The notes under the pieces were generated by a model. The model was not told the DNA's origin. It ran no database searches and was given only the letters and a program-made list of their open reading frames with translations. A stretch of 60,000 nt of DNA from Bugula neritina. Its lineage: Eukaryota; Bryozoa; Gymnolaemata; Cheilostomatida; Bugulidae. Below, one piece after another: positions 534 to 49,231 of the stretch; position 1 is the stretch's first letter, and each line of letters opens with the position of its first letter. A program made the translations under genes and the position numbers. The DNA lies in contig OZ037771.1 in assembly GCA_964035545.1 (NCBI GenBank), positions 64,001-124,000 of the forward strand, written 5' to 3'.

Positions 534-767
534 CCACCTTTATAGTATTTTCTGATATCAACATCAGATGGCGCTATGCTAGCAGACTCATCAAAGTCAT
601 AGAACTGGTCTGTGTTATATTTTTCAGCAGCGTTGATCCCTCCAGTGACGCTGCCTTCTATGATGACAGTAGAGTCATCTAGCTGAGGGTAGGGGGACGG
701 CAGGGTGCGTGAAGACTGCTGCCTCAAACCAGGCAGCGCAGGTGACATGTTGTTGAATACTCGAACA
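534..767 (-). CDS. FAT4: Fat-like cadherin exon 50: cytoplasmic tail with SIAPSD motif
   Basis: DVRVFNNMSPALPGLRQQ followed by a segment containing FDESASIAPSDVDIRKYY, matching the conserved Fat-family tail motif as I know it. Acceptor tgtttcag, donor GTAATG, ends in phase 2, so at least one more exon lies left of the window. Confidence 0.88.
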
Positions 768-3700
768 CTGAAACAGTATTAGTGACTGCAGACTGTATAC
801 TCAGACTACACACTGTATACTCAGACTAGACACTGTATACTCAGACTACACACTGTATACTCAGACTAGACACTGTATACTCAGACTACACACTGTATAC
901 TCAGACTACACACTGTATACTCAGACTACACACTGTATACTCAGACTACACACTGTATACTCAGACTACGCACTGTATACTCAGACTACACACTGTATAC
1001 TCAGACTACACACTGTACACTCAGACTACACACTGTATACTCAGACTACACACTGTATACTCAGACTGCGCACTGTATACTCAGACTACGCACTGTATAC
1101 TCAGACTACACACTGTATACTCAGACTACACACTGTATACTCAGACTACATACTGTATACTCAGACTACACACTGTATACTCAGACTACACGCTGTATAC
1201 TCAGACTACACACTGTATACTCAGACTACATACTGTATACTCAGACTACAGACTGTATACTCAGACTACACACTGTATACTCAGACTACACTTACTCGGG
1301 ATGCTCACTAGCCAAGATATCTGCGTCAGTGAGGTTATCAAGACCCCCTGATGTTTCGTTGCTCTTGCTGAACTGAGGGGTAATGATGGGCAGTGAGCCC
1401 TTCATTGTACCAGAGGACTTCCTGTCAGGTTTCAGTCTGCGACAGCCGTAGACGGTGACCAGGACGACTGCCAGGACAAACACCACCGAGCCAACAATGA
1501 TGACCGCCCACATCCACGGCTTTATTGACTGCTTGGAGGTGTTTGTTCCCTCCATTTGGATACAAGCAGCTGCAATACAGTGCAATATAATGCAATATAA
1601 TACAATATAATACAATATAATATAATACAATATAATGCAATATAATACAATATAATACAATACAATATAATACAATACAATATAATATAATGCAATATAA
1701 TACAATACAATACAATATAATACAATATAATACAATATAATATAATACAATGCAATGCAATATAATACAATACAATACAATATAATATAATACAATGCAA
1801 TATAATACAATACAATATAATATAATACAATACAATATAATACAATACAATACAATATAATACAATGCAATATAATATAATACAATATAATACAATACAA
1901 TATAATACAATACAATGCAATATAATACAATGCAATATAATACAATATAATACAATGCAATATAATATAATACAATACAATATAATACAATACAATGCAA
2001 TATAATACAATGCAATATACTACAATATAATACAATACAATATAATACAATACAATATAATACAATACAATACAATACGATACAATACAGGAATTCTCCC
2101 ACAACATTGCAGTATCAACACATACTAGGAGATGAAACACTAATATGTTAGTTGATGTCATAACATACACTTACCGCTCACAGCATCGCAAGCCTTTCCT
2201 TGCCCACAAATATCAACAGTGAGTGGACATCCATCACATCCGGCCACAACCTGGTCAGCATTTGACACGGAAATAGCAAACTTATCTGTAACGGCAGCAG
2301 ACATTGGCAGCCGATCTCCATTGATTATCAGATCAGAGATACAACCTGAAGTAGAGACAGAGATATAACTTGAAGTAGAGACAGAGAGACAACTTGAAGT
2401 AGAGACAGAGATATAACTTGAAGTATAGACAGAGGTATAACTTGAAGTAGAGACAGAGATATAACTTGAAGTAGAGACAGAGATATAACTTGAAGTAGAG
2501 ACAGAGAGATAACTTGAAGTAGAGACAGAGATATAACTTGAAGTAGAGACAGAGATATAACTTGAAGTAGAGACAGAGATATAACTTGAAGTAGAGACAG
2601 AGATATAACTTGAAGTAGAGACAGAGATATAACCTGAAGTAGAGATAGAGATATAACTTGAAGTAGAGATAGAGATATAACTTGAAGTAGAGACAGAGAT
2701 ATAACTTGAAGTAGAGACAGAGAGACAACTTGAAGTAGAGACAGAGATATAACTTGAAGTATAGACAGAGGTATAACTTGAAGTAGAGACAGAGATATAA
2801 CTTGAAGTAGAGACAGAGATATAACTTGAAGTAGAGACAGAGATATAACTTGAAGTAGAGACAGAGATATAACCTGAAGTAGAGACAGAGATATAACTTG
2901 AAGTAGAGACAGAGATATAACTTGAAGTAGAGACAGAGATATAACTTGAAGTAGAGACAGAGAGACAACTTGAAGAAGAGACAGAGAGACAACTTGAAGT
3001 AGAGACAGAGATATAACTTGAAGTAGAGACAGAGAGATAACTTGAAGTAGAGACAGAGAGACAACTTGAAGTATAGACAGAGAGACAACTTGAAGTAGAG
3101 ACAGAGATATAACTTGAAGTAGAGACAGAGATCCAACTTGAAGTAGAGACAGAGAGACAACTTGAAGTAGAGACAGAGAGACAACATAAAGTAGAGACAG
3201 AAGGTGAATACGCGGCAGATAGTACTGAGAAGTCTGAGGTGGACAATGACCTCTCTACATACCTTGATACACGTCAGCAATGATAATCTGGGACACAGTG
3301 TAGAGATCAAGGAAGTCGTGAGGAGCAGAGGAGTTGTCTGCGGCCACTTTACCATCAACTGAGAGCAGAGTGGACGTGTCTGTCACAACCAAAGAGATGT
3401 CATGCCATTTACCATCTGTCACTGTCGTCTCTGCATTTGTCACACTTCCATACACGACTAATCCATCTTGCAACTTCAACTCTCTGTTGGCAGAGTACGG
3501 AATAGTTGACATGACTACCCCGTCCACTCCAGTTCTTACTCGCACACTCAGTCTACTACTATCAGCCGTAATTTGTCTCTTTATTCGTGATGAGGGCGTT
3601 TTCAGCAGTTGATCTCTGCGATAACTCTCCAGGTATTTGTATATGAAGGCAGATGACTGGCTGACGGAGACATCTGTGTCTATCAGAGCTGAAACATACA

Positions 3701-6700
3701 TACACTGTATAGATAACTAACGTACCTTCAGTACAAGAGAGCTGGTACTATGCAGAGAACTAACGTACCTTCAGTACAAGAGAGCTGGTACTATACAGAT
3801 AACTAACGTACCTTCAGTACAAGAGAGCTGGTACTATACAGATAACTAACGTACCTTCAGTACAAGAGAGCTGGTACTATACAGATAACTAACGTACCTT
3901 CAGTGCAAGAGAGCTGGGAGTAGAAATTAGGGCAGGCACAGAGAGTAGAGAACCAATCAGCTCGGCATTCATTCTCCTCTCCACACAAGGAGCTGCAGTG
4001 AGACGCTGGCTGAGGACAAGTGTTCCTTACATTGAAGGTGCTCTGTGAGTCCTCTATTGTGATTGGACGGCCATCTATTTGTAGGTCACCGATACAGCCA
4101 ATGAATGTTGCTGAGGATAACACAGATCTGAATTGAAGGACCGTGTCTATAGCGGCTGTACCTACAGAATAGAGTAAACAGGTATACTATAGAGTACACA
4201 GGTATACTATACTATACACAGGTATACTACAGAGTACACAGGTATACTATAGAGTACACAGGTATACTATAGAGTACACAGGTATACTATAGAGTACACA
4301 GGTATACTATAGAGTACACAGGTATACTATAGAGTACACAGGTATACTATAGAGTACACAGGTATACTATAGAGTACACAGGTATACTATAGAGTACACA
4401 GGTATACTATAGAGTACACAGGTATACTATAGAGTACACAGGTATACTATAGAGTACACGGGTATACTATAGAGTACACAGGTATACTACAGAGTACACA
4501 GGTATACTATACTATACACAGGTATACTATAGAGTACACAGGTATACTACAGAGTACACAGGTATACTATAGAGTACACAAGTATACTATAGAGTACACA
4601 GGTATACTATACTATACACAGGTATACTATAGAGTACACAGGTATACTATAGAGTACACAGGTATACTATAGAGTACACAGGTATACTATACTATACACA
4701 GGTATACTATAGAGTACACAGGTATACTATACTATACACAGGTATACTATAGAGTACACAGGTATACTATAGAGTACACAGGTATACTATAGAGTACACA
4801 GGTATACTATACCTGCAATGTAGAGAGGATGTGAGCTGGTCGTAAGATCTCCGAGCCCCTGGTTGAGTGAGACGCTACTGTAACAGTCCACCTGCTTATT
4901 ACAGGGTGTGGAGCATTCTGAGGCCGACTTGCAGAACACAACCTCTAGAGTAGCTTCAGTAGAGGTCCGTGTAGCGTGTATTCTATACCAGCTTCCGGAG
5001 GCCACAGTCTACAACACACACTGTCACATGACTTGCTAGTCTGAGTAGTTGGTAACCTAGCAACAGTCTACAACACACACTGTCACATGACTTGCTAGTC
5101 TGAGTAGTTGGTAACCTAGCAACAGTCTACAACACACACTGTCACATGACTTGCTAGTCTGAGTAGTTGGTAACCTAGCAACAGTCTACAACACACACTG
5201 TCACGTGACTTGCTAGTCTGAGTGGGTAGTAACCTAGCAACAGTTTACAACACACACTGTCACATGACTTGCCAGTCTGAGTAGTTGGTAACCTAGCAAC
5301 AGTCTACAACACACACTGTCACATGACTTGCTAATCTGAGTGGGTGGTAACCTAGCAACAGTCTACAACACACACTGTCACATGACTTGCCAGTCTGAGT
5401 AGTTGGTAACCTAGCAACAGTCTACAACACACACTGTCACATGACTTGCTAGTCTGAGTAGTTGGTAACCTAGCAACAGTCTACAACACACACTGTCACA
5501 TGACTTGCTAGTCTGAGTAGTTGGTAACCTAGCAACAGTCTACAACACACACTGTCACATGACTTGCTAGTCTGAATTGTGCTCTTCATACACTGGAGAT
5601 GGTTGACTCAATGGGTTTACCTTAGAAACTGTGACCCCGCTTTGACCTTGATCAGCCCTGAAGGTGAAGGTTACGCTGCCATCAGAGATCTGAAGAGCTA
5701 GGAACTGGGAGTCTACTCCTTGCTGGAACAGGAGTAAAGCGTTCATACTCTTAGTTGCCAAGGTCATCTTAATGTCATTCAAATCAAAGCTCTCAGATGG
5801 CAGCTGCATATACGAGCCATCTTGAAATCCGAAGCTGGACTCATTACAGAGCAGCCCGTAGTATCCATATGCACAGTTACACTGGTATCCTCCAGTGGGT
5901 AAATCTGTAACCAATTGGCAGTAATTATATAGTATAACATATATTACAGTATAGCATATATAGCACATAGTATGGGTGTAATATATATTACAGCATAGCA
6001 TATACAGCATATAGTATGAGTGTAATATATATTACAGTATAGCATATACAGCATATAGTATGGGTGTAATATATATTACAGCATAGAATATATAGCATAT
6101 AGTATAGGTGTAATATATATTACAGCATAGAATATATAGCATATAGTATGGGTACGACACACTCACCAACACACGTAGCTGTCTGATGACAAGGATTTCT
6201 GGTCTCACATCTGATTCTCTCCTCACACCTCACACCACGGTAATGCTCTGTACATGCACACTGGAAGGATCCCTCCACGTTGGTACAGCTGCCTCCATTT
6301 AGACATGTGTCCGGGTCCAGACATTCATCAACATCTTCCTCGCACTGAGCTCCCTGCCAGAACTCTGTGCAAACACACTGGAAGTCTGACTCCCCCACTG
6401 GAAGACATCGAGCGCCGTGCATGCAGGGTGAGCTGATGCAGGCTTTAGCCTCGTCACTGCAGCTCTCCCCGATGTACTGCGGCTCACAGACGCAGAGTGG
6501 CTGCAGAGAGGCGAGTTGGTAGGTGAGGGTAAGAGATGCGGTAGACGTGTAGTCTAGCTGGTCAAACACCACCACCTGTGAGCGACAGTCACCATTGCCG
6601 GAGCAGCTGGCCACTGTGCACACATTCCTGCGGGAGGTGGAGACGGTGACACCACTCTTCCTTGATATGGCTTCCTTGTTGGCAGAGAGGAGAGAGGCTA

Positions 6701-9700
6701 AGGAGGTGGATGGTGAGCCATCAGCAGCCTCCAGCACAAGGTAGAGGTCAATGTAATTCCCTGTGGATCTCATTGACAGTAATCTAACACTCTCACCGTT
6801 GAAAGTGAACTCTTCAACACTGGAGATGAACAACTCGGAGAGTTTAACAAACTCCTCGGCGCTAACATCAGATACTCGGGTCACAATAGCGGAGTCTAGA
6901 GTGCGATTAGTGTACGGTTTGACTTTGACATTCACAGTTGACTGCACAGTGTTATGAACACCGTCATGTCCATTAACGGTGAGAGACGTGTCTGATTTGA
7001 GATCTCTAGCTAGAAGTTGACAGCCAGCCCCTGGGTAAGTAAATGGACAATAGTGAGTACACAGTGAGTACACAGTGAGTGTATAGTGAGTGTATAATGA
7101 GTACACAGTGAGTATACAGTGAGTACACAGTGAGTATACAGTGAGTACACAGTGAGTACACAGTGAGTATACAGTGAGTACATAGTGAGTATACAGTGAG
7201 TATACAGTGAGTATACAGTGAGTATACAGTGAGTATATAGTGAGTACACAGTGAGTACACAGTGAGTACACAATGAGTACACAGTGAGTACACACGCACC
7301 AGGAAGAGAGAAGACAGGATGTGAGGAAATGCTACAAGAATAGTCGCCAACCACGTCAACGTCTAGAGGCTCTACGCTAGCCACAGCACCATCAACGTAG
7401 GGGCCATAACTCTGTATGACTACAGTCAGGTCCCTCGGCTCAGACGGCTCATCGTTCTCATCCTCTACGTTCACCTGAACACAAAGTACACGTCATCTAC
7501 CTTTCTGTCTTACAAACACGGCATCATTACCCTCATTCCACCTTCACAACAGTGTACAGAGGGCAGTACACATCACATGTTGGAGATAGACTCACCTTTG
7601 CTGTCAGCTGTGATGTGCGACCACCGCTGTCAGTTACGTCTACTGTAAGAGAGTAAGACTTGGTCACTTCATAGTCAAAGAGCAGGTTCTTAGTGAACAC
7701 TGTGCCTGAGTTCTGGTTGATGTAGAAGTGCGGTGAGTTGAGACTGTAGGTGTACGGCCCCTGTATGTCACATATATATTATCATAATATACTGTCATCT
7801 CATAACTCTGGTTTCATGTAATAAAGACCGAGCTGAATAAAAGTAAAGACCTGATTGGGAGGAATGTCATCATCATATGTCATGGAGCTGAGTCTAAGAA
7901 CTGGAGTGTCGGCCTCAGCTCCTTCGACAACTGAGCCCTCCGGTGTGGGGGGTAAGAAGTAGGGAGACTCATCATTCACATCAGTGACGTGTACATGAAC
8001 TATGGCTTGTCCGGTGAGAGGGGGACGACCCTGATCTATAGCCTGGGCTACCAACATGTACTCATTCTTTTCCTCTCTGTCCAATGAGCCTATATAAATC
8101 AGTTGATATACATCACATACAATACTATACTACATTATATTATACTATATTATATTATACTATATTATATTATATTATACTATGTTATATTATATCATAC
8201 TATACTATATTATATTATATTATATCATACTATAATATTATATTATTATCAGACTCACGAGTGGTGGAGATACGTCCATTGTCAGAGTCTATAGAGAACT
8301 GGCCAAAATCATCCTCCAGAGCATAGCTGAACTTCCTGTTATTAGCCTGCTGGTCAGAGTCAGTGGCAGAGACGGTCAATATATAAACTGCGGGCTGTTG
8401 ATTTTCCCCCACTGAGCCATTATAGGTCAGCTGGTTGAACCGGGGGCTATCATTAGCATCATCTAGATTTATCCATATCGTCGCCGTATCTGTATCATTC
8501 CCTGTCAGAACAGTTAGTAACAATATAATATGTTATACAATACAATATAATATAATATAATATACTACAATATAATATAATATAATATACTACAATATAA
8601 TATAATACATAATATAATATAATGCACTGATATTTATACATAGCCTACCTTTCACAGGTCCGGGATTTTTCACCAGAGCATGCAGTATTACGGTTGCCAC
8701 ACTTTCCCGATCTAATATTTCTGCCACTGTCAGTCTCCCGGTGGTTATGTCGAGAGAGAATCCCTTCTCGTTGCTCTCCCCAGTAAGTATGTACAGGAGC
8801 TGACCGTCTGCCCCTTCATCCTCGTCAGTCGCTGTCAGGTCTCCCAACACATGTCCAACTTGAGCTGATTCACTGACGTCAAATGTGTACGTCTTCTGCA
8901 GAACATATACAGAGCATATAGTAATATACAGAGCATATAGTAATATACAGAGCATATAGTAATATACAGAGCATATAGTAATATACAGAGCATATAGTAA
9001 TATACAGAGCATATAGTAATATACAGAGCATGTAGTAATATACAGAGCATATAGTAATATACAGAGCATATAGTAATATACAGAGCATATAGTAATATAC
9101 AGAGCATGTAGTAATATACAGAGCATATAGTAATATACAGAGCATATACATATAGTAATATACAGAGCATATACATATAGTAATATACAGAGCATATAGT
9201 AATATACAGAGCATATACTAGTACGTATAATACCATTATGTAACAGCTGATAAAACATACCTGTATGAATTTGGGTGAATATTCGTTGACTCCTCTCACA
9301 TAAACAGTAAGCAGAGCTGTACTAGTATATGCACTACTTTTAGGATTCACTGCTTTCACTGAGAGTCTGTATTCACTGCTCTCTTCATAGTCAAACACTG
9401 TTTTAGCAATGATCTCTCCGGACACACTGTCTATACTGAATAGTCTGTGGGACGAGCCATCCTCAATGATTGAGTATCTGAAAAAGTGACAGTAGTGCTA
9501 GTAGTAGTGACAGTAGTGCTAGTAGTAGTGCTAGTAGTAGTGACAGTAGTGCTAGTAGTAGTGACAGTAGTGCTAGTAGTAGTGACAGTAGTGCTAGTAG
9601 TAGTATATGCCTACCTTACAATGCCATTATCACCCTCGTCAGCGTCAACAGCGCTGACCTTGGTAACAAAGGAGTCAGGGTCAGAATTCTCAGAGAGGTA

Positions 9701-39700: not shown

Positions 39701-42700
39701 GTGCCATGTATTGTATACAAATGTCGCCTGTAGAAATGGGGAAAGCATAATATGTGTTTGTTAGCACCCAGTTCAACTACTACCTTAGATGGAATATGCT
39801 GTACAAAGCAAATGAAATAACATTGGGGCTGAGAGCCATTGACTGCATACTAAATCATAGATGACAGAGCCATCAGCAATAAATCATGTCATTAGGAAGT
39901 AGGAGTAGTAATAGTAGAACTGAGAAGAGAGTAGTAATAGTAGAACTGAGTAGTAATAGTAGAACTGAGTAAGGAGTAGTAATAGTAGAACTGAGTAGGG
40001 AGTAGTAATAGTAGAACTGAGTAGAGAGTAGTAGTAGTAGAACTGAGTAGGGAGTAGTAGAACTGAGTTGGGAGTAGTAATAGTAGAACTGAGTAGTAAT
40101 AGTAGAACTGAGTAAGGAGTAGTAATAGTAGAACTGAGTAGGGAGTAGTAATAGTAGAACTAAGTAAGGAGTAGTAATAGTAGAACTGAGAAGAGAGTAG
40201 TAATAGTAGAACTGAGAAGAGAGTAGTAATAGTAGAACTGAGTAGTAATAGTAGAACTGAGTAAGGAGTAGTAATAGTAGAACTGAGTAAGGAGTAGTAA
40301 TAGTAGAACTGAGTATGGAGTAGTAGTAGTAGAACTGAGTAGGGAGTAGTAGAACTGAGTTGGGAGTAGTAATAGTAGAACTGAGTAGTAATAGTAGAAC
40401 TGAGTAGTAATAGTAGAACTGAGTAAGGAGTAGTAATAGTAGAACTGAGTAGGGAGTAGTAATAGTAGAACTGAGTAAGGAGTAGTAATAGTAGAACTGA
40501 GTAGGGAGAGGGAAAGGGTTGTTTTCCTCAAGTAAACCCGGGTTAATTTCTCTGCCATAGAGCATAGACCGTGAAGCTCAATTTTATACCCATGACAAAT
40601 CATCAAAACACAAATTCAATAACATGTAAGCAAGAATAAATCTGACAAAGAAAATAAATTGTTAATTTTCTATACCTTTTCAATCTAGAACTTTTTTTAA
40701 ACAATAGCACAAACAAAAGCATTAATTTTTGTGACTTTATCTGATGAAGAATGAACAAAAGAGCTGGCATACAGGGTACTGCACCTATGAACAGAACCTA
40801 TGCCAGCAGGCTTGAACTGACATGAATGTGACTATGTTTTGCGTAGTCTGTGAGAATACTATTAATCCCAGCTCAATTACCAACTATCTTGACCCTTGAA
40901 CAATTTATCTGTTCCCAGTCTTTTAGATTTACTATATTTTGTTCTAATTAGACACTCGAGCAGTAAAACACCTCAATTCAAACAGCAGAAAGTGGCTGGA
41001 ATGGCTAGAAATAATTACTTTTTGATCACTTTAGTGCCAGGCAGATAGATTTAGTTAGATGGCAGTAGTATATAATCTCAGTGCAGTTTTCTATGGCTTA
41101 TTCATCACCACTTTTGATCTATACTGACTGTGCCGTATACTATACTGTATACTGACTACTGACTACGGTTAGTAGCAGCACACTCACAATGAAATAATCA
41201 ATTAAAAGGGAGGCCAATATTTACATTTAAACTGCAAAGTATACATGATGAGTAAATATGAGCAAACAAATAAGAAACAAAACCACTGAAAAATATTCAA
41301 GGGGAAAAGCTATGGCTATGGTCTATAGCTAACCATCACAGCGCATGCGTTTTCTCAGTCACACTGATTACTTAAAATCTATAAACTGCAAATGTTGCAA
41401 AATTTCTTGATTCACAAAGTCATCTAAATGACACTTTCAACTTTGAAATCACAGTTACCCATACCCATAATTTACAATGATCCTGAAAACACTAATTGGG
41501 TAGTTAACATTTAACTAATAACATATTATACAATAAATCATAATATGGGTTATTTAGATAGACTTTAGTTGAATACAACCAACCTTCATCAGCGTCAGTA
41601 GCAGTGACTGCAGCGACAAAGCTGTTCACAGGCTCCAACTCACTAACCACAGCGAAATATGCTGCTGATGAAAAGACTGGACTGTGGTCATTGGCGTCCA
41701 AAACAATCACAGTTATACTGATTGTAGAACTTAAACTATTGACACCATAATCACTAGCAACAAATGTCAAGTTATAAGAAGATATTTGTTCCTTGTCCAT
41801 CAACTCTTTAGTAAATAAAAAACAGAATTTTGATATGCATATAGGAGGTTTGAAATGTCCAAGCTCGTTTCCAGATAGAATAGCGAGACTGACACGACCG
41901 TTCTCTCCTTTATCTTCATCCCTAACAACAAAACTAACAGCACGAGAATCGATTGGTGCATCTTCAGAAACAGTTGGTGGTTGTTTACCAGAGACGATAA
42001 CTACGGGAGCATGGTCATTAACATCTTCCACAATTATTTTCACCCGACTTTGGTCTCGGAGTTGGGTAGATCCAAGGCCGTCCTGATCTACCACCCATAT
42101 CTCTAGGACACACACTGTGAGACACAGAGTAGTATTACAGTAACTTGATTGGCAAGATGTTTCAGATGAGTAATCTGAATTATGTAGAGCCGCCTTTAGC
42201 AATACTTCTCCTGTAAAGCTGTCTATGCTAAACAGCTTGTTCTGTGTCATGGAGTAGACAAGAGCAGAGTTGAGGCCTTCATCAGGATCATCGGCTTGCG
42301 TTTCAAGTACCTTGGAGCCTACCGTAGCGTTTTCAAGGACCACCCCATGATATAAACTTAAGTCAAATGTTGGATGATTGTCGTTCAGGTCTCTAACAAC
42401 AATATTAACAACTGCTGTACCAGTTTTAGCAGAAACAGCACCGTCTCTAGCTTCAACAACAAGACGGAAAGACGGAATTTCCTCTCGGTCAACTTGTTTC
42501 AGCAGCGTCAACGCACCCGTTTTCTGACCAGAGCTGGTACTGGTAGTTAACTTCCAATAACCTTTTTCATTGCCAGATATTATGGAGTAAGTCAATGATC
42601 CATTAACACTGAAATCAGCATCATTGGCTGTCAATGTGAAAGGTTGAATAGGTACATCATTCTCAGTAATAGTATAATTTAAAGTGTTGGATGTAAATCT

Positions 42701-43156
42701 TGGGCTATTGTCATTTATATCAATGATGAGCACTATCACTTCAATGAAGATGGAAGGAGATGACGGATGATTCTGCTTCACCACAAATTTAATCTCATTG
42801 CTGATCAATCGCTCTCTGTCGATAATCTTTTTAACACTGATTTCTCCTGATAACTGGTTTACAGAGAAATATTGAGTCTGAGTGGCAAGATCATACGTGT
42901 ATCCAGAGCTATTGCTAATCCCACCAATCAAACTGCCAGCAGGCAAGTTTTCTTCTATACTAAAATGCCTTTTAAGGCCTTCCTGGCAAACTGCAGGTGA
43001 GATTAATGATTGAAATACGACAAAGGCTATTAGAAGCTGGAGGCGTTGATTAGGTGACCTGCATGCTTTCCAACCAAGTGGCAAACTGCTCAAACGTGTA
43101 AAATATTTTGTTTTTCCATATAGATGTTGTGCCAGACAACTGTTCCATGGACGCAT
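534..43156 (-). CDS. FAT4: Giant Fat-family cadherin (Fat/FAT4-like), 50 exons, 3' end outside window
   Basis: Single-pass cell-surface cadherin; family members bind Dachsous-type cadherins and act in planar polarity and growth control. Seen: an ATG at 43156 with an in-frame TAG two codons upstream, a hydrophobic signal stretch (residues about 41-56), about 34 cadherin repeats judged by 34 linker positions of the DxNDN type, EGF modules 1-4 (about 3833-4000), LamG1 (to about 4197), EGF5, LamG2 (about 4235-4420), a short Cys-rich EGF-like module, a TM helix (about 4447-4470) and a tail with DESASIAPSDVDI. I placed each splice site by hand from GT/AG and reading phase; all 49 joins keep frame, giving 4598 codons plus 2 nt. 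The EC34-EGF-LamG-EGF-LamG order is the established Fat/FAT4 layout; FAT1-3 have one LamG. No frameshift or internal stop was seen. The C-terminus continues beyond position 534. Orthology is inferred from layout and tail motif, without a tree. Confidence 0.93.
770..1290. repeat. 20-bp minisatellite, intron 49
   Basis: About 25 copies of ACTACACACTGTATACTCAG with point variants. Confidence 0.97.
1296..1569 (-). CDS. FAT4: Fat-like cadherin exon 49: transmembrane helix and tail start
   Basis: Hydrophobic helix MWAVIIVGSVVFVLAVVLV with stop-transfer CRRLKPDRK, then NLTDADILASEHP. Consensus donor GTAAGT. Phase 1 in, 2 out. Confidence 0.92.
1572..2095. repeat. Pentanucleotide array, intron 48
   Basis: About 105 units, mixtures of CAATA, TAATA and TGCAA. 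Minus strand is stop-free in all frames, producing long false ORFs. Confidence 0.97.
2175..2345 (-). CDS. FAT4: Fat-like cadherin exon 48: LamG2 end and short EGF-like module
   Basis: GCISDLIINGDRLP closes LamG2; CDGCPLTVDICGQGKACDA is a small Cys-rich module. The open frame continues upstream through the whole 24-bp array. Phase 1 in and out. Confidence 0.9.
2346..3200. repeat. 24-bp minisatellite, intron 47, built on the exon 48 acceptor
   Basis: About 35 copies. In sense each codes for SVSTSSYI or a variant and resembles the junction CTACTTCAG|GTTGTATCTCTG. The copies at about 2633 and 2873 keep the CAG acceptor; most others have AAG. Confidence 0.95.
3263..3688 (-). CDS. FAT4: Fat-like cadherin exon 47: LamG2
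   Basis: SSRLSVRVRTGVDGVVM, DGKWHDISLVV and SVDGKVAADNS are LamG strands. Contains SSRIKRQ, a dibasic stretch that could be a protease site (inference). Donor GTATGT. Phase 1 in and out. Confidence 0.93.
3709..3897. repeat. 43-bp minisatellite, intron 46, contains exon 46 end and donor
   Basis: Four copies plus the true junction at 3893. Each holds about 20 exon bases, GAAG and GTACGT. Confidence 0.95.
3898..4161 (-). CDS. FAT4: Fat-like cadherin exon 46: LamG1 end and EGF5
   Basis: FIGCIGDLQIDGRPI is the typical LamG closing strand; an EGF with six Cys follows. The last 20 exon bases and the donor GAAG|GTACGT are copied downstream. Phase 1 in and out. Confidence 0.92.
4165..4812. repeat. 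20-bp minisatellite, intron 45
   Basis: About 32 copies of GGTATACTATAGAGTACACA, several with ACTATAC in place of AGAGTAC. Confidence 0.97.
4813..5008 (-). CDS. FAT4: Fat-like cadherin exon 45: LamG1 middle
   Basis: TVASGSWYRIHATRTSTEA, then LYIAG. The acceptor gttgtag|ACTGT is repeated in each 59-bp unit upstream. Phase 0 in, 1 out. Confidence 0.9.
5009..5576. repeat. 59-bp minisatellite, intron 44, contains the exon 45 acceptor
   Basis: About 9.6 copies, each with GTTGTAG|ACTGT in sense, that is the acceptor and first five bases of exon 45. Confidence 0.95.
5621..5904 (-). CDS. FAT4: Fat-like cadherin exon 44: EGF4 end and LamG1 start
   Basis: DLPTGGYQCNCAYGYYG closes EGF4; SFGFQDGSYMQLP opens LamG1. 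Donor GTAAAC. Phase 1 in, 0 out. Confidence 0.9.
5910..6165. repeat. About 44-bp repeat, intron 43
   Basis: Five to six copies of an AT-rich unit with ATATATTACAGCATAG. Confidence 0.9.
6167..7030 (-). CDS. FAT4: Fat-like cadherin exon 43: membrane-proximal region, EGF1-EGF3 and start of EGF4
   Basis: About 138 residues of the non-repeat region that follows the last cadherin repeat in Fat proteins. Then EGF1 with a long loop (CTVASCSGNGDC ... CVCEPQYIGESC), EGF2 (SSPCMHGARC), a calcium-binding EGF3 (DVDECLDPDTCLNGGSC) and the first half of EGF4. Phase 1 in and out. Confidence 0.93.
7033..7295. repeat. 11-bp minisatellite, intron 42
   Basis: About 24 units of CAGTGAGTACA. Confidence 0.95.
7300..7474 (-). 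CDS. FAT4: Fat-like cadherin exon 42
   Basis: VNVEDENDEPSEP is the last linker-type motif; what follows has no further repeat signature and enters the membrane-proximal region. Donor GTGCGT. Phase 0 in, 1 out. Confidence 0.9.
7596..7760 (-). CDS. FAT4: Fat-like cadherin exon 41
   Basis: GPYTYSLNSPHFYINQNSG, LLFDYEVTKSY. Supported by frame with both neighbours. Donor GTGAGT. Phase 0 in and out. Confidence 0.87.
7851..8089 (-). CDS. FAT4: Fat-like cadherin exon 40
   Basis: SLDREEKNEY, linker DVNDE, then TYDDDIPPNQ. Donor GTCTTT is weak but keeps frame to GPYTYSL. Phase 1 in, 0 out. Confidence 0.88.
8100..8250. repeat. Pentanucleotide array, intron 39
   Basis: TATAC/TATAT units. Confidence 0.9.
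8259..8501 (-). CDS. FAT4: Fat-like cadherin exon 39
   Basis: Linker DDANDSPRF, ATDSDQQANNRKFSY, SDNGRISTT. Donor GTGAGT. Phase 1 in and out. Confidence 0.9.
8522..8635. repeat. Pentanucleotide array, intron 38
   Basis: ATATA/CAATA-type units filling most of the intron. Confidence 0.9.
8649..8895 (-). CDS. FAT4: Fat-like cadherin exon 38
   Basis: KTYTFDVSESAQVG, DEDEGADGQLLY, ILDRESVATV. Donor GTAGGC. Phase 0 in, 1 out. Confidence 0.9.
8900..9235. repeat. 19-bp minisatellite, intron 37
   Basis: About 17 copies of AGAGCATATAGTAATATAC; two units carry an extra six bases. Confidence 0.96.
9261..9477 (-). CDS. FAT4: Fat-like cadherin exon 37
   Basis: RYSIIEDGSS, VFDYEESSEY, linker GVNEYSPKF. 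Donor GTATGT. Phase 2 in, 0 out. Confidence 0.9.
9484..9605. repeat. 18-bp minisatellite, intron 36
   Basis: About six to seven copies built from AGTAGTGACAGTAGTGCT. Confidence 0.93.
9615..9846 (-). CDS. FAT4: Fat-like cadherin exon 36
   Basis: DYEKSTQHQVTL, linker DTDDN, DADEGDNGIV. The acceptor ctattag|ATTACGAGA recurs in each 46-bp unit upstream; I use the copy nearest the exon. Phase 1 in, 2 out. Confidence 0.88.
9847..10337. repeat. 46-bp minisatellite, intron 35, contains the exon 36 acceptor
   Basis: About 10.6 copies. Each carries in sense CTAATAG|ATTACGAGA, the acceptor and first nine exon bases. Confidence 0.96.
10339..10537 (-). CDS. FAT4: Fat-like cadherin exon 35
   Basis: WVTPTPLEYDVSESEEAG, GDSDEGINSAIIY, SKAL. 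Donor GTATGT. Phase 0 in, 1 out. Confidence 0.9.
10646..10938 (-). CDS. FAT4: Fat-like cadherin exon 34
   Basis: NAADNVDYHDNALVSY, LQAADHGQP; linker degenerate (PENRFSPR). Donor GTAAGA. Phase 1 in, 0 out. Confidence 0.9.
10939..11295. repeat. 20-bp minisatellite, intron 33
   Basis: About 17 copies of TACAGTGTGCTGTAGGTAGA. A 13-14 bp GCTAGGTGGTAGGT array follows to 11385. Confidence 0.96.
11405..11642 (-). CDS. FAT4: Fat-like cadherin exon 33
   Basis: VKYQLVSPSSFFLIDPMTG, VEARDHGVP, linker DANDH. Donor GTGAGT. Phase 0 in, 1 out. Confidence 0.9.
11650..11940. repeat. 29-bp minisatellite, intron 32
   Basis: About 10 copies of a unit with GTGTAACCATACAATACTA. Confidence 0.96.
11958..12098 (-). 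CDS. FAT4: Fat-like cadherin exon 32
   Basis: VTDVNDNAPEF, then TQDEDEEGPNSL. Donor GTTAGT. Phase 0 in and out. Confidence 0.9.
12105..12240. repeat. Pentanucleotide array, intron 31
   Basis: AATAT/AACAC/AGTAT units. Confidence 0.9.
12253..13283 (-). CDS. FAT4: Fat-like cadherin exon 31, three repeats
   Basis: The largest internal exon of the ectodomain (1031 nt). LDYSLTPTF, LDRERIARY and LDRENVSSY mark three repeats; the linkers are a degenerate TFRRYATSAQPVF, then DENNH and DINDM. Donor CAG|GTGCTG. Phase 1 in, 0 out. Confidence 0.93.
13290..13708. repeat. 11-bp minisatellite, intron 30
   Basis: About 38 units of GTAGAGTATTA and variants (TAACA, TATCA). Confidence 0.95.
13713..13911 (-). 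CDS. FAT4: Fat-like cadherin exon 30
   Basis: Linker RDINDNAPSF, DYDFGANGSIIY, LDTSTG. Donor GTCCGT. Phase 0 in, 1 out. Confidence 0.9.
13970..14235. repeat. 29-bp minisatellite, intron 29
   Basis: About nine copies with TCAGTATATAGTTACACAG. Confidence 0.96.
14309..14421 (-). CDS. FAT4: Fat-like cadherin exon 29
   Basis: Short exon: QTLDREVNETYELTVIAHD. Donor GTATTT, acceptor tctgtag. Phase 1 in, 0 out. Confidence 0.85.
14425..14900. repeat. 19-bp minisatellite, intron 28
   Basis: About 25 copies of GTGTAGATATCATATAGTA. Confidence 0.96.
14918..15154 (-). CDS. FAT4: Fat-like cadherin exon 28
   Basis: Linker RDINDHPPIF, DLDLGSNGEVRY, FTIDYVTG. Donor GTTAGA. Phase 1 in and out. Confidence 0.9.
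15325..15526 (-). CDS. FAT4: Fat-like cadherin exon 27
   Basis: VYDPDSAPYNESYYEL, STTGVIFASKPVNREKTSKF. Donor GTAAAA. Phase 0 in, 1 out. Confidence 0.88.
15535..15745. repeat. Degenerate about 30-35 bp AT repeat, intron 26
   Basis: Variants of ATATGATATATTATATAATAG, five to six imperfect copies. Confidence 0.8.
15767..15919 (-). CDS. FAT4: Fat-like cadherin exon 26
   Basis: AEDLGVSSQSS and linker LDWNDSPPVF. Donor GTGAGA. Phase 0 in and out. Confidence 0.88.
15930..16082. repeat. 32-bp minisatellite, intron 25, contains exon 25 end and donor
   Basis: Four to five copies of a unit that reads TACAA|GTAAGTGTGACC in sense, the exon 25 donor. Confidence 0.92.
16083..16222 (-). CDS. FAT4: Fat-like cadherin exon 25
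   Basis: LAAEIRYYIIGGDPNE and GLDYERIKSY. The donor TACAA|GTAAGTG is copied through the next intron. Phase 1 in, 0 out. Confidence 0.87.
16223..16715. other. Unique intron 24 sequence
   Basis: AT-rich, no open frame, no repeat; nothing recognised. Confidence 0.7.
16716..17312. repeat. GTAGTAGTTAGA minisatellite, intron 24
   Basis: 12-bp units of GTAGTAGTTAGA and shorter forms. At 16876-16892 one block reads CAGTTACCAGTGTCAAG, a stray copy of the exon 24 donor junction. Confidence 0.94.
17315..17546 (-). CDS. FAT4: Fat-like cadherin exon 24
   Basis: TLDREGRSAY, linker DANDN, SAEDADTG. Two tandem acceptors are possible (ttgcag at 17547 or tgctgcag nine bases in); the first keeps LLQTLDRE. 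Phase 0 in, 1 out. Confidence 0.9.
17560..17700. repeat. Short-period array, intron 23
   Basis: ACTATATACTC-type units of 11-12 bp. Confidence 0.88.
17730..17939 (-). CDS. FAT4: Fat-like cadherin exon 23
   Basis: Linker GDINDNEPSL, DLDLGTNAVVTY, SSGELK. Donor GTACTT. Phase 0 in and out. Confidence 0.9.
17940..18369. other. Unique intron 22 sequence
   Basis: No repeat or ORF recognised. Confidence 0.7.
18370..18620. repeat. 28-bp minisatellite, intron 22
   Basis: About nine copies of GTGTATACTCAAGGAGTGTA plus CACCGGGG; GC-richer than other arrays and a source of false plus-strand ORFs. Confidence 0.96.
18645..18823 (-). CDS. FAT4: Fat-like cadherin exon 22
   Basis: GMNGEVEY, HLDWEELSEY, KAEDYA. 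Donor GAA|GTGAGT. Phase 1 in, 0 out. Confidence 0.9.
18830..19630. repeat. 32-bp minisatellite, intron 21
   Basis: About 25 copies containing GACTATGAGTCATGACTAT; the core ATGAGTCAT is an AP-1-type palindrome present in every unit. Confidence 0.96.
19634..19838 (-). CDS. FAT4: Fat-like cadherin exon 21
   Basis: VEAADQDP, linker DENDN, and AFDDDAG continuing into exon 22. Donor GTAGGT. Phase 0 in, 1 out. Confidence 0.9.
19880..20252. repeat. 31-bp minisatellite, intron 20, contains the exon 20 donor
   Basis: About 12 copies. Sense unit: GTGAGTGTGGGCGTGTCTCC then TTATTGCAGAG, so each has a strong donor, a pyrimidine tract and an acceptor. Confidence 0.96.
20253..20596 (-). CDS. FAT4: Fat-like cadherin exon 20
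   Basis: ALDRETTPVY, linker DINDE, DEDLGVGGEVKY, LDFEE. Its donor GAGAG/GAG|GTGAGT resembles the donor copied in every unit of the array that follows in the intron. Phase 1 in, 0 out. Confidence 0.9.
20600..21475. repeat. 23-bp minisatellite, intron 19
   Basis: About 38 copies of AGTATATAGTATAGAGATAG plus AGT; minus strand stop-free. Confidence 0.96.
21482..21671 (-). CDS. FAT4: Fat-like cadherin exon 19
   Basis: Linker LLDVNDSIPKF, then AVDPDENAQLSY. Donor GTATTT. Phase 0 in, 1 out. Confidence 0.88.
21870..22695. repeat. 38-bp minisatellite, intron 18
   Basis: About 21 copies with ACTATGACTAGTACTTCTAC. Confidence 0.96.
22736..23011 (-). CDS. FAT4: Fat-like cadherin exon 18
   Basis: FTQPSYQKDILETFQANKN opens the repeat; QATESNVEYY and PLDRDQGFVTY follow. 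The acceptor cttcag at 23012-23013 is about 65 bases upstream of the first Met and keeps frame with exon 17. Phase 0 in and out. Confidence 0.87.
23035..23160. repeat. TATGGTGTTG-type low-complexity array, intron 17
   Basis: Degenerate 5-10 bp units rich in TGGTG. Confidence 0.85.
23264..23464 (-). CDS. FAT4: Fat-like cadherin exon 17
   Basis: ITYSLRSGTGLFYIDATSG and VRAADNGQPQ. The expected DxNDN linker is replaced by TSSSVDSGLA. Donor GTAAGT. Phase 0 in and out. Confidence 0.88.
23475..23640. repeat. 16-bp minisatellite, intron 16
   Basis: About nine copies of TGACTCACTGAGTAAC. Confidence 0.94.
23641..24055. other. Unique intron 16 sequence
   Basis: Nothing recognised. Confidence 0.7.
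24056..24242. repeat. GTGACAGGTAG array, intron 16
   Basis: Units of about 10-19 bp built from GTGACAGGTAGGCAAATGA. Confidence 0.88.
24470..24670. repeat. GAGTGAGACT array, intron 16
   Basis: About 14-bp units of GACTGAGTGAGTGA next to the exon 16 donor. Confidence 0.9.
24688..24894 (-). CDS. FAT4: Fat-like cadherin exon 16
   Basis: LEIEATDQA, linker DINDN and ARDKDKGRNQQ. Donor GTGAGA. Phase 0 in and out. Confidence 0.9.
24935..25185. repeat. TATAC low-complexity array, intron 15
   Basis: TATAC/TATAT pentamers with local higher-order duplications. Confidence 0.9.
25201..25377 (-). CDS. FAT4: Fat-like cadherin exon 15
   Basis: SANDSDSGVNGKVLY, SVDRESSDTDEVTERY. Donor GTAAGA. Phase 0 in and out. 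Confidence 0.9.
25385..27330. repeat. 14-bp minisatellite, 1.95 kb, intron 14
   Basis: About 139 near-identical copies of GTGTAATATAGAGA (A/G at one site). The largest array of the window; the minus strand is open for 747 codons, a repeat artefact. Confidence 0.98.
27535..27596. repeat. AGACAGAG octamer run, intron 14
   Basis: Seven to eight units beside the exon 14 donor. Confidence 0.9.
27607..27851 (-). CDS. FAT4: Fat-like cadherin exon 14
   Basis: KLDYENKQLY and linker DVNDN; ends NTSTP at donor GTGAGT and joins VVTVSANDSDSG. Phase 1 in, 0 out. Confidence 0.9.
28015..28610. repeat. About 28-30 bp minisatellite, intron 13
   Basis: About 20 copies with TATTCTCTCTCTAGTTATAT; plus-strand CTCTCTAG runs, not acceptors in the gene's orientation. 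Confidence 0.95.
28613..28997 (-). CDS. FAT4: Fat-like cadherin exon 13
   Basis: SAEDEDLELNGAVEY, VLDRERQSDY, altered linker DANNQ, then TATDGDLGVNAIIHY. Phase 0 in, 1 out. Confidence 0.9.
29035..29415. repeat. 24-bp minisatellite, intron 12
   Basis: About 16 copies of CACAATGTAGAATACACTGT plus ATAA. Confidence 0.96.
29424..29564 (-). CDS. FAT4: Fat-like cadherin exon 12
   Basis: AVDNGITKRS and linker DVNDN. The acceptor (tttatag|GCAGTTGAC) and the first 14 exon bases are copied five times in the upstream intron. Phase 0 in and out. Confidence 0.88.
29565..29722. repeat. 28-bp minisatellite, intron 11, contains the exon 12 acceptor
   Basis: About five copies with TTATAG|GCAGTTGACAATG in sense, the acceptor and exon start. 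Confidence 0.95.
29992..30155 (-). CDS. FAT4: Fat-like cadherin exon 11
   Basis: SARDDDVGRNSDLMY, TGEIRSKKEFDREAVSKY. Donor GTATGT. Phase 1 in, 0 out. Confidence 0.9.
30165..30522. repeat. 43-bp minisatellite, intron 10
   Basis: About eight copies with GTCCACACTAACACCCCTTA. Confidence 0.96.
30536..30826 (-). CDS. FAT4: Fat-like cadherin exon 10
   Basis: GENAHVTY, KLDRESKGRY and linker DNNDN. Acceptor gttgtag, donor GTGAGT. Phase 1 in and out. Confidence 0.9.
30830..31215. repeat. ACCCCCTCTATAC array, intron 9
   Basis: About 18-19 bp units of ATACACCCCCTCTATAC; sense strand is GGGGG-rich. Confidence 0.94.
31240..31412 (-). CDS. FAT4: Fat-like cadherin exon 9
   Basis: Linker AEDVNDHSPVF and TATDDE. 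Acceptor attacag at 31413-31414, donor GTAGTA. Phase 2 in, 1 out. Confidence 0.87.
31438..31700. repeat. 20-bp minisatellite, intron 8
   Basis: About 13 perfect copies of ATACACATACTATACAATAT. Confidence 0.97.
31730..31905 (-). CDS. FAT4: Fat-like cadherin exon 8
   Basis: AKDRDAGKNAKVTY and TATDRGAVP. Donor CCTAG|GTGAGG. Phase 0 in, 2 out. Confidence 0.88.
32016..32312 (-). CDS. FAT4: Fat-like cadherin exon 7
   Basis: SARAETVITY, SLDRDDVAAY and linker DENDN, so one whole repeat interface. Donor GCTCAG|GTTTGT. Phase 0 in and out. Confidence 0.88.
32320..32770. repeat. Composite array, intron 6
   Basis: AGTAAGTACAGTATATAGTA blocks alternating with CAGAGCTAGTATAGTA; higher-order unit about 60 bp. 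Confidence 0.9.
32771..33225. other. GC-richer unique block in intron 6
   Basis: Markedly less AT-rich than its surroundings. Has minus-strand open stretches (84 codons at 32906-33160) but no recognised protein; a skipped or relic segment or an unknown dispersed repeat. Confidence 0.5.
33230..33455. repeat. 53-bp minisatellite, intron 6
   Basis: Four copies with CAACATAGGGGAGGAGAGTA. Confidence 0.95.
33785..35482. repeat. 21/26-bp minisatellite, 1.7 kb, intron 6
   Basis: About 66 units of TATAGTGTAATATAAAGGTA plus TAGTAG or CAGTAG, with scattered five-base-shorter units; minus strand open for about 600 codons as an artefact. Confidence 0.96.
35485..35655 (-). CDS. FAT4: Fat-like cadherin exon 6
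   Basis: Degenerate linker GDPEERDPVF in place of DxNDN. Ends NIGQLVGT at donor GTACGT and joins ISARAETVITY across a 3.2 kb intron. Phase 0 in and out. Confidence 0.86.
35656..35890. repeat. 30-bp minisatellite, intron 5, contains exon 5 end and donor
   Basis: Seven copies coding in sense for SPSSYVLEVI or variants, each with a GAG|GTAATA donor in the exon 5 frame. Confidence 0.95.
35891..36163 (-). CDS. FAT4: Fat-like cadherin exon 5, end duplicated in the following intron
   Basis: Linker DENDN and HDNDVGDNGRVIY. The exon ends SSYVLE at donor GAG|GTAATA. The same 30-bp end-plus-donor segment is repeated seven more times downstream in the same open frame (to 35651), so the true end could be any of eight donors; I give the first. 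Joins in frame to INAADTPGTT. Confidence 0.85.
36185..37475. repeat. 25-bp minisatellite, 1.3 kb, intron 4
   Basis: About 51 nearly perfect copies; sense unit has TATAACTAACTACTCTC. Confidence 0.98.
37720..38010. repeat. TATACACAGTATATAG array, intron 4
   Basis: 16-bp units, some inverted relative to each other, giving local palindromes around TATACTGTGTATA. Confidence 0.9.
38054..38249 (-). CDS. FAT4: Fat-like cadherin exon 4
   Basis: EC core with DKGANGSVKY and SLDREERDSY. Acceptor gttaccag, donor GTTTGT. Phase 2 in, 0 out. Confidence 0.87.
38262..38482. repeat. 28-bp minisatellite, intron 3
   Basis: About eight copies with ATTACATGTTATACACAATA. Confidence 0.95.
38635..38788 (-). CDS. 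FAT4: Fat-like cadherin exon 3
   Basis: Carries the linker DENDEVPTF and the first strands of EC6. The donor CG|GTATAA was chosen because it gives the join MDAIDR-DKGANGSV; the open frame runs 51 bases further but has no better GT. Phase 1 in, 2 out. Confidence 0.82.
38815..38980. repeat. CTACACCCCTGCTG low-complexity, intron 2
   Basis: Degenerate units of CTGCTACACCC. Confidence 0.85.
38983..39141 (-). CDS. FAT4: Fat-like cadherin exon 2
   Basis: Completes the EC5 core: DENGRITY at the start (join ATDADE-DENGRITY), SASDHG at the end. Acceptor tgtttcag, donor GTAAGT. Phase 1 in and out. Confidence 0.88.
39142..39894. other. Unique intron 1 sequence, 3' part
   Basis: No repeat, ORF or motif recognised. 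Confidence 0.7.
39895..40505. repeat. AGTAATAGTAGAACTGAGTA array, intron 1
   Basis: Blocks of 20-27 bp in variable order, about 24 units, with a roughly 300-bp higher-order duplication. Confidence 0.94.
40506..41583. other. Unique intron 1 sequence, 5' part
   Basis: About 1.1 kb, AT-rich, no ORF; nothing recognised beyond the exon 1 donor. Confidence 0.7.
41584..43156 (-). CDS. FAT4: Fat-like cadherin exon 1: signal peptide and EC1-EC4
   Basis: Starts at ATG 43154-43156, preceded in frame by a TAG. A 40-residue basic lead precedes the hydrophobic stretch QLLIAFVVFQSLISPAVC, so the signal peptide has an unusually long n-region. Four complete cadherin repeats follow, with linkers DINDN, DLNDN, DVNDH and DANDH. 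EC3 carries an odd insertion with five Cys (SCQSSYCNTTLCLTVC). Donor GAAG|GTTGGT, phase 1. Confidence 0.93.
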
Positions 43157-46723: not shown

Positions 46724-46945
46724 ATGGCTGGCTTTATCCGTAATATTTGTCCTAAGCTACTACATTCTCGACATTTCTCCAAGTTGCTTCCCAAACAGCA
46801 TGTGTTTGAGTTCACTAATTCTTGCGTCCACCAGCCCATAATCTTTTCATCAAGACTACTCAACACAACTACTCAAGCACCTGCTAAAAAGAAAAACAAA
46901 AAACCTGTTGGCAGTAAATCAAAAGACCAAAAACTACAGAATGAG
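46724..46945 (+). CDS. MRRF: MRRF exon 1: mitochondrial presequence and linker
   Basis: Starts at ATG 46724; donor AATGAG|GTTAGT. Phase 0 out. Confidence 0.9.
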
Positions 46946-49231
46946 GTTAGTAAGTTTATATGTAGCGCTTGCTTTTAGTTAGAGCTTGTACTATCATAGT
47001 TCATACATTTATATTTCATACCTTGGCATTTCGTTATTCTTAATCTTGTCATTTCAACAAGGATAGACCTTCTAGTTTGGATGAAATTGTCAACATGGAG
47101 GAGGTAGACAGATTGTTTGCTGAAGTCTTGGCTGACTTTCACAATGAGCTGGTCAGTAGAACAAGTATTAGGGCCAGTCAAGCATCACTTAGCCAACTTT
47201 CTATTGATATTGACAGTGGCAAAACCATAGATCTACAATATATAGGTAACTATACTGATTAGTATATCAATATATAGGTAACTATACTGATTAGTATATC
47301 AATATATAGGTAACTATACTGATTAGTATATCAATATATAGGTAACTATACTGATTAGTATATCAATATATAGGTAACTATACTGATTAGTATATCAATA
47401 TATAGGTAACTATACTGATTAGTATATTAATATACAGGTAACTATACTGACTAGTATATCAATATATAGGTAACTATACTGATTAGTATATCAATATATA
47501 GGTAACTATACTGATTAGTATATCAATATATAGGTAACTGTACTGATTAGTATATCAATATATAGGTAACTATACTGATTAGTATATCAATATATAGGTA
47601 ACTATACTGATTAGTATATCAATATATAGGTAACTATACTGATTAGTATATCAATATATAGGTAACTATACTGATTAGTATATCAATATACAGGTAACTA
47701 TACTGATTAGTATATCAATATATAGGTAACTATACTGATTAGTATATCAATATATAGGTAACTATACTGACTATTATATCAATATACAGGTAACTATACT
47801 GATTAGTATATCAATATACAGGTAACTATACTGATTAGTATATCAATATATAGGTAACTATACTGATTAGTATATCAATATATAGGTAACTATACTGATT
47901 AGTATATCAATATATAGGTAACTATACTGATTAGTATATCAATATATAGGTAACTATACTGATTAGTATATCAATATATAGGTAACTATACTGACTATTA
48001 TATCAATATACAGGTAACTATACTGATTAGTATATCAATATATAGGTAACTATACTGATTAGTATATCAATATACAGGTAACTATACTGATTAGTATATC
48101 AATATACAGGTAACTATACTGATTAGTATATCAATATACAGGTAACTATACTGATTAGTATATCAATATATAGGTAACTATACTGATTAGTATATCAATA
48201 TATAGGTAACTATACTGATTAGTATATCAATATATAGGTAACTATACTGATTAGTATATCAATATATAGGTAACTATACTGATTAGTATATCAATATATA
48301 GGTAACTATACTGACTAGTATATCAATATATAGGTAACTATACTGACTCCTCTTGTGGGTTCTCATTCATCCATTTTGTTGAAAAATTTGCTTACTTTTA
48401 GCCCAAGTTTCAGTAAAGCCTCCAAACTTGGTTCACATAAACTTAGCCTCCCACCCGCAGTATATTGCAAGTGTAAGAAAAAGGCTACAGAGAGCTGACC
48501 TCAGCCTGAATCCTCGAGTTGATGGAACTTCACTCTTCATAGAAATACCTAAAGTGACGAGGGATCACAGAGAGAAGCTGAGTAAAGCAGCCAAAGTGAG
48601 TATATACTAGGTGCTATACTATACTGTACTAGGTGCTATACTACACTACACTACGTGCTATACTATACTGTACTACGTGCTATACTACGTGCTATACAAC
48701 ACTATACTACACTACGTGCTATACTATACTACACTACGTGCTATACTACACTATACTATGTGCTATACTATACTACACTACGTGCTATACTATACTATAC
48801 TATATGCTATACCAGGTGCTATACTACACTATACTGTGTGCTATACTACAATATACCATGTGCTATACTACAATATACCATGTGCTATATTACGTGCTAT
48901 ACTATGTGCTATAATTTCCTAGAAACATTTCAGATAATTTCTGACCAGCATAAAGTCAAGGTACGACAGGTACAAAACTCTAATGTCAAAGTTATCAACA
49001 AATGGAAGGATTACTTCAGCATTGATGATTTGCGGAGACTGGAAAATAAAGTTTTAGAGGTGATGAATTTTCAATATTTTATAACTCAACAGTTTTGACT
49101 TTGTTGGCTTTTAGTGGTAACAACTAACCTGTTATATGCTATCTTTATTTCTACAGTTGGGAAAACTTCAAAATCGAAAGATAGATGAAATGTTGAAGTC
49201 CCGGCAGAAAGAGCTTTTGAATGACCAATAG
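46724..49231 (+). CDS. MRRF: Mitochondrial ribosome recycling factor, five exons, complete
   Basis: Releases ribosomal subunits after termination of mitochondrial translation, with the mitochondrial EF-G2. The 801-nt CDS (222+184+194+126+75) gives 266 aa, against about 262 for human MRRF. The N-terminus MAGFIRNICPKLLHSRHF is basic and lacks acidic residues, as in a mitochondrial presequence; a lysine-rich linker (KKKNKKP) follows. RRF signatures: VSRTSIRASQASL, INLASHPQYIASVRKRLQ, ADLSLNPRVDGTSL, IPKVTRDHREKL, and the C-terminal helix RKIDEMLKSRQKELL. Phases agree at all four introns. The start is the first ATG of the frame that gives the presequence. A poly(A) signal AATAAA is at 49837-49842. 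Confidence 0.93.
47062..47245 (+). CDS. MRRF: MRRF exon 2
   Basis: DRPSSLDEIVNMEEVDRLF to LQYI. Donor TATATAG|GTAACT, identical to the unit boundary of the array that fills the next intron. Phase 0 in, 1 out. Confidence 0.9.
47246..48345. repeat. 32-bp minisatellite, MRRF intron 2, each unit GT...AG
   Basis: About 34 copies of GTAACTATACTGATTAGTAT plus ATCAATATATAG. Each boundary TATATAG|GTAACT equals the exon 2 donor junction. Confidence 0.98.
48402..48595 (+). CDS. MRRF: MRRF exon 3
   Basis: AQVSVKPPNLVHINLASHP through KLSKAAK. Acceptor cttttag, donor GTGAGT. Phase 1 in, 0 out. Confidence 0.92.
48600..48910. repeat. GTGCTATACTACACTAC array, MRRF intron 3
   Basis: 10-20 bp units of ACTACGTGCTATACT. 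Confidence 0.92.
48934..49059 (+). CDS. MRRF: MRRF exon 4
   Basis: IISDQHKVKVRQVQNSNVK through LENKVLE. Acceptor catttcag, donor GTGATG. Phase 0. Confidence 0.9.
49157..49231 (+). CDS. MRRF: MRRF exon 5, stop at 49229-49231
   Basis: LGKLQNRKIDEMLKSRQKEL to the stop TAG. Acceptor tctacag. The 3' flank begins with a 20-bp unit (CAACACCTGTCAACATTGGT) in about three copies. Confidence 0.9.
   Translation: MGKLQNRKIDEMLKSRQKELLNDQ

Follow-up and report, generated by a model that had tools for sequence, protein, structure and literature searches.

Minisatellites that copy splice junctions in a FAT4-like cadherin gene and an MRRF gene of Bugula neritina

Two genes with array-filled introns

The DNA considered here, a window of 60,000 nucleotides from the bryozoan Bugula neritina (contig OZ037771.1, positions 64,001 to 124,000), carries two genes in whose introns tandem repeats copy the splice junctions themselves. 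The larger encodes a FAT4-like protocadherin and the smaller the mitochondrial ribosome-recycling factor MRRF (Table 1). The cadherin model was produced by a gene finder run with raised penalties and then curated by phase and protein continuity. All 49 of its introns are GT-AG, and its reading frame stays open up to a single stop at the very end. The best match is the protocadherin Fat 4-like protein of the bryozoan Watersipora subatra, 53% identical across 99% of the 4604 residues. Its exon numbering agrees with that of a preliminary description of the window, to which we return below. The spliced MRRF model, of 266 residues, matches the mitochondrial ribosome-recycling factor chain of a solved structure (7nsh) with an E value of 1.2e-27.

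Both genes lie in sequence rich in tandem repeats. Arrays called by Tandem Repeats Finder make up 46% of the window and, with overlapping rows removed, 74% of the cadherin intron bases. The 55 arrays of the cadherin gene are spread over 46 of its 49 introns; introns 5 and 35 are almost entirely array, and the three array-free introns measure 90, 121 and 170 bp. Arbitrary 10-kb stretches on three contigs (C1, C2 and C4) hold 0.4–1.6% tandem repeat, five other cadherin stretches hold 2.6% to 20.6%, and one further arbitrary 10-kb stretch (C6:7000001-7010000) reaches 99.9%. Among the stretches compared, the cadherin gene is unusually array-rich, and the junction cases described below follow this array density.

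Splice junctions copied into introns

In our test of junction copying, the 12 bases at the intron edge must recur inside the same intron at 10 or more of 12 positions, and the adjoining exon bases that match at 80% or better are then counted. Intronic copies of the intron edge were found at 18 of the 98 cadherin junctions. Nine of these run at least 8 bases into the exon, where an exon-edge swap over the same 98 junctions expects 0.06; with the threshold lowered to 4 bases, the swap expects 0.98. Eight of the nine are the donors of exons 5, 20, 25 and 46 and the acceptors of exons 12, 36, 45 and 48; the ninth, the donor of intron 24, has a single matching copy among 34 and was counted as chance. 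The same arrangement is present at the donor of MRRF exon 2, which stands outside the exon-swap control. Over these nine junctions, five donors and four acceptors, a repeat unit of 24–59 bp includes the splice signal together with 8–25 exon bases, the latter with 0–3 mismatches, and is present in 4–35 intronic copies (Table 1). The preliminary description had named the eight cadherin junctions and the MRRF donor as copied into their adjoining introns, and so we find them: the junction copies are real sequence structure, well above chance.

Table 1. Genes of the window and arrays whose repeat unit includes a splice junction
Feature	Position	Strand	Exon	Intronic copies	Exon bases in unit	Remarks
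FAT4-like protocadherin gene	530..43156	-				50 coding exons, 4604 residues; curated model
30-bp array, exon 5 donor	35676..35914	-	35891-36163	7	24	unit a multiple of three bases (3n), open
28-bp array, exon 12 acceptor	29552..29724	-	29424-29564	5	15	14 exon bases identical
31-bp array, exon 20 donor	19887..20260	-	20253-20596	11	8	7 exon bases identical
32-bp array, exon 25 donor	15934..16101	-	16083-16210	4	19	16 exon bases identical
46-bp array, exon 36 acceptor	9838..10335	-	9615-9846	10	11	10 exon bases identical
59-bp array, exon 45 acceptor	5004..5575	-	4813-5008	9	8	7 exon bases identical
43-bp array, exon 46 donor	3704..3917	-	3898-4161	4	25	22 exon bases identical
24-bp array, exon 48 acceptor region	2334..3201	-	2175-2345	35	12	11 exon bases identical
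MRRF gene	46724..49231	+	46724-46945, 47062-47245, 48402-48595, 48934-49059, 49157-49231			
32-bp array, MRRF exon 2 donor	47236..48346	+		34	10	GT in all copies

An array in intron 13 (28016-28610, reverse strand) begins 2 bases past the exon 13 donor, and some of its units resemble the exon end. This is perhaps a decayed tenth junction array, whose extension of 2 bases fell below the threshold.

The direction of copying can be read from the protein. In six of the eight cadherin cases (exons 12, 20, 25, 36, 46 and 48), the stretch of exon that was copied includes a residue that Bugula shares with every one of the eight Fat proteins aligned with it: the D and G of AVDNG in exon 12, the E of FEE in exon 20, the Y of YTLTIQ in exon 25, a C in exon 46, GC in exon 48 and, in exon 36, the D of DYE, whose codon is split and has two of its bases in the copy. 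The copied part of exon 5 includes a Y common to seven of the eight other Fat proteins. The presence of such conserved residues in the copied exon ends shows that the arrays grew from the exons into the introns.

Homology also supports joining at the exon-proximal copy. Relative to Watersipora Fat4, the exon-proximal joins show no gap within 5 residues at seven of the eight array junctions, as compared with 36 of 41 non-array cadherin junctions, and the exon-proximal join of MRRF is contiguous against the solved mitochondrial recycling factor. At the remaining array junction, that of exon 45, a gap does occur, but it falls on the side of exon 44. A donor 27 bases upstream in exon 44 (AAG/GTAAAC, the slash marking the cut) would give a join, VSK/TVAS, like that of Watersipora, and the true exon 44 donor probably lies there; the alignment and all statistics given here keep the modelled position.

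The frames of the alternative products point the same way at most junctions. No internal donor copy would yield an open, in-frame product at exon 20 (0 of 11), exon 25 (0 of 4), exon 46 (0 of 4) or MRRF exon 2 (0 of 34), nor would any internal acceptor copy at exon 12 (0 of 5), exon 36 (0 of 10) or exon 45 (0 of 9), so that no alternative is open and in frame at seven of the nine junctions.

The splice dinucleotides are mostly kept in the copies. GT is present in 7 of 7 donor copies at exon 5, 7 of 11 at exon 20, 3 of 4 at exon 25, 4 of 4 at exon 46 and 34 of 34 in MRRF, and AG in 5 of 5 acceptor copies at exon 12, 10 of 10 at exon 36 and 8 of 9 at exon 45. At exon 48, only 2 of the 35 copies keep an AG in register, because the usual unit reads CAAG, which places the AG one base downstream. 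The 3 to 34 duplicate splice sites per array that were originally described can thus be retained for the copies that keep the dinucleotide, and not for those of exon 48. With exon 48 left out, 6 of 168 cells are mutated in the dinucleotide columns and 104 of 2902 in the other columns, 3.6% in each case, and a random adjacent pair of columns has as few changes or fewer in 63% of draws. The copied signals thus drift neutrally, with no sign of either retention or purging, and the earlier idea that the arrays are kept because of their splice sites is not supported.

How the arrays may have arisen

The preliminary description proposed that array birth begins by duplication at a junction. The number of junction-spanning arrays expected without any such tendency was estimated for 48 arrays, 7 of the 55 being dropped because they had fewer than 3 copies or a unit shorter than 10 bp; an overlap was counted when it took in 4 to 24 bases of the exon. 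When nucleation is uniform and the ancestral length is that of the residual intron (median 86 bp), 13.9 junction-spanning arrays are expected and 8 are seen. Floors on the ancestral length of 90, 121, 170 and 226 bp lower the expectation to 10.5, 8.6, 6.7 and 5.5, and at the 226-bp floor the probability of 8 or more is 0.17. Sliding whole arrays within their own introns gives 16.6 expected versus the same 8. In a separate run on the 48 arrays, 7 were seen versus 12.2 expected at a threshold of at least 6 exon bases, and other settings of that run expected 10.5 to 13.9. A first, cruder null expected 17.7 over all 55 arrays.

A similar result was obtained in other loci, five stretches (200 kb) picked by cadherin matches, in which the gene models are predicted and uncurated. 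Among the junctions of their 284 introns, 50 have intron edges that recur, and at 7 of these the match extends at least 6 bases into the exon, in some cases on a single copy, versus 0.38 by exon swap. Once 51 of these introns had been set aside because the exons beside them were weak, 233 remained, and in them 4 of 47 arrays overlapped an exon edge by at least 6 bases, versus 6.7 expected. The junction-copy structure recurs elsewhere in the genome and there, too, is without excess. Neither set of loci, then, bears out a preference of array birth for junctions. The part of the proposal that survives is that a first duplication can include the junction and proceed from the exon outwards. Junction-overlapping arrays no commoner than expected had been named beforehand as one of two findings that would tell against it, and this is what the cadherin gene gives under most settings tried.

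We think it likely that these are minisatellites formed in place, like the "mirages" of amphioxus discussed below, that they started at random points in short introns, and that their intronic copies are tolerated decoys. A short tandem duplication would start somewhere in a short intron and then expand, presumably by slippage or unequal exchange. Some first duplications would cross the exon edge, because the units (24–59 bp) are long relative to their host introns, and would carry the splice signal along. The spliceosome would normally use the exon-proximal copy, so that the intronic copies could persist as tolerated decoys.

Several observations weigh against this interpretation, and some of them lend support to one or another of its rivals. 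The ancestral intron length is an assumption, and the expected count drops from 13.9 to 3.8 as that length grows; the nucleation test therefore depends on it. At a floor of 350 bp the 8 arrays seen are an excess over the 3.8 expected (P = 0.03), and the median residual intron in the other loci is 226 bp. The cases in the other loci are, moreover, all donors (4 of 4 array overlaps and 7 of 7 junctions with at least 6 exon bases), a bias that we had not expected and cannot explain. No B. neritina protein is among the matches listed for the cadherin (the best 120 of 777), and so its gene model has no independent annotation from the species. By a position matrix trained on the cadherin gene, 75 of 84 internal copies (exon 48 left out) equal or exceed the real site in score, and the choice of the exon-proximal copy is therefore not explained by site strength. 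Finally, the internal copies are open and in frame at exon 5 (7 of 7) and exon 48 (35 of 35), where other copies may therefore be used, although at exon 48 most AGs are out of register, so that splicing to them would shift the frame all the same, and use of the last exon 5 copy as donor would leave an intron of 25 bases. As a separate matter, the exon 48 array is open in exon 48's own frame across all 35 units (2158-3273, reverse strand), within a stop-to-stop frame of 371 residues.

These points bear differently on the alternatives. Duplication could be favored at exon–intron junctions, at a rate exceeding random nucleation; R-loops, breaks coupled to splicing or AGGT microhomology might bring this about. 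Nine clear cases, eight of them in one gene, the excess at the 350-bp floor and the prominence of donors (five of the nine cases in the window and all of those in the other loci) speak for such a bias; we nevertheless consider it unlikely, as the counts fall short of expectation, or do not significantly exceed it, from the residual length up to the 226-bp floor, with the other loci and the sliding of whole arrays in agreement. The ladder of sites could instead be functional, kept because several sites are used to make proteins of different length, most of all at exon 5, where each extra unit would add VISPSSYVLE in frame. The open frame at all seven alternative donors of exon 5, the strength of the internal copies and a human IFI6 minisatellite reported to give multiple donor sites would fit such a role. 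The copied dinucleotides, however, mutate as freely as their neighbors, no alternative copy in MRRF or at six of the cadherin junctions would give an open in-frame product, and the exon 5 join is free of insertions in all eight aligned Fat proteins, the nearby gaps being of one residue. We regard a functional ladder as very improbable. A combination of these two ideas, in which minisatellite births are drawn to splice junctions, and to donors above all, and thereby make their own ladders of equal-strength sites, so that at units of 3n bases, as in exon 5, the FAT4 proteins of different individuals would differ by 10-residue steps, strikes us as quite improbable.

The arrays could also be the founding sequence of the introns themselves, each intron being born by tandem duplication of an AGGT-containing exon segment, as in the Rogers model. 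In its favor, introns 5 and 35 are nearly all array, and the mirages of amphioxus have been put forward as a source of new introns (PMC3087553). That model, however, derives donor and acceptor from one duplicated segment, whereas all eight cadherin arrays overlap one junction only (by at least 4 bases), and MRRF exon 3 starts 55 bases past its array; it appears to us the least probable of the readings considered. Random nucleation within short introns, with the copied sites as decoys, thus remains the account that we favor.

Related systems and other observations

The preliminary description knew of no described class of junction-seeded minisatellites. The mirages of amphioxus are a described class of this structure: minisatellite-like tandem duplications that span exon–intron boundaries, at 5' or 3' ends, in Adh3 and in the globin genes BflGb6 and BflGb9, with units of 10–72 bp in Adh3 and of about 150–160 bp in the globins and with AG/GT in many, not all, of the copies (PMC3087553). 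Mirages are also characterized by undisturbed regular splicing, length polymorphism and somatic instability. The B. neritina units resemble them in spanning the boundary, in affecting both 5' and 3' ends and in being of minisatellite size (24–59 bp). They differ in their bryozoan host, in the range of their unit lengths and in their number, nine in one 60-kb window and eight in one gene, and, whereas splicing and length instability were examined for the amphioxus repeats, the B. neritina arrays are known here from the sequence of one assembly. We found no report of such repeats in bryozoans among the open-licence papers listed by our searches, one of which listed 12 of 14,839 papers, most subscription journals lying outside their reach. 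What is new here is the phylum and the density; the class itself is already described.

In other respects the arrays recall repeats of human genes. A minisatellite of IFI6 (6-16) was reportedly found by Turri in 1995 to give multiple splice donor sites. It is like the B. neritina donor arrays in being a tandem repeat with donor sites at an exon end and unlike them in that several donors reportedly serve a transcript, whereas in B. neritina homology supports the exon-proximal one only. Internal tandem repeats are also located at exon–intron boundaries in human segmental duplications, where minisatellite expansion can give rise to alternative patterns of splicing and to new introns (PMC2812944). 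The likeness is in the boundary repeats that expand; the human cases are recent paralogs in segmental duplications, and those of B. neritina sit in introns that are broadly filled with arrays.

The B. neritina arrays extend junction repeats of the mirage type to a second phylum, one distant from that of amphioxus, where they are densely packed. With 4 to 35 junction copies per intron in one large conserved gene, most of them, outside exon 48, as strong by score as the real site, the cadherin locus is a natural test bed: RNA from B. neritina would show directly by what rule the spliceosome selects one of several equal sites, and whether proximity to the exon is rule enough. The locus also illustrates that a striking anatomical pattern can come about with no bias towards junctions where the repeat units are long compared with the introns around them.

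Elsewhere in the window, two arrays 5 kb apart (52743-53203 and 58319-59860) have a common 20-bp unit, in rotated form, and one of them may have seeded the other. The window lies 64–124 kb from the start of its contig (C7), and the first 3 kb of that contig (C7:1-3000) consist wholly of a 7-bp repeat of telomeric appearance, CCCCAAA (TTTGGGG when read from the opposite strand). A query of five TTAGGG units in tandem has no match in B. neritina's own genome, and bryozoa are not mentioned in the best 8 of 152 papers found in a literature search. We do not claim a subtelomeric cause of the arrays, as they are also present in stretches of 3 kb sampled at 160 kb, 400 kb and 1.5 Mb.

The window also holds, at 54316-55167 on the forward strand, a reading frame for a glycosyltransferase of family 11 (fucosyltransferase-like), whose best match is an unnamed protein 95% identical to it. 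The identity of the host agrees with its COX1: the sequence on contig C295 of the 216-Mb assembly, translated with the invertebrate mitochondrial code, is 100% identical to Bugula neritina COX1 over 447 residues, and the next named matches, at 82–89%, come from other bryozoans such as Flustra foliacea. Further COX1 matches lie on other contigs of the assembly. A nearly full copy at C6:11.17 Mb and a decayed piece at C4:5.17 Mb are probably nuclear; C196 and C65 carry split copies, which suggest that mitochondrial genes are interrupted there, and a match without TGA codons on C17 is perhaps bacterial.

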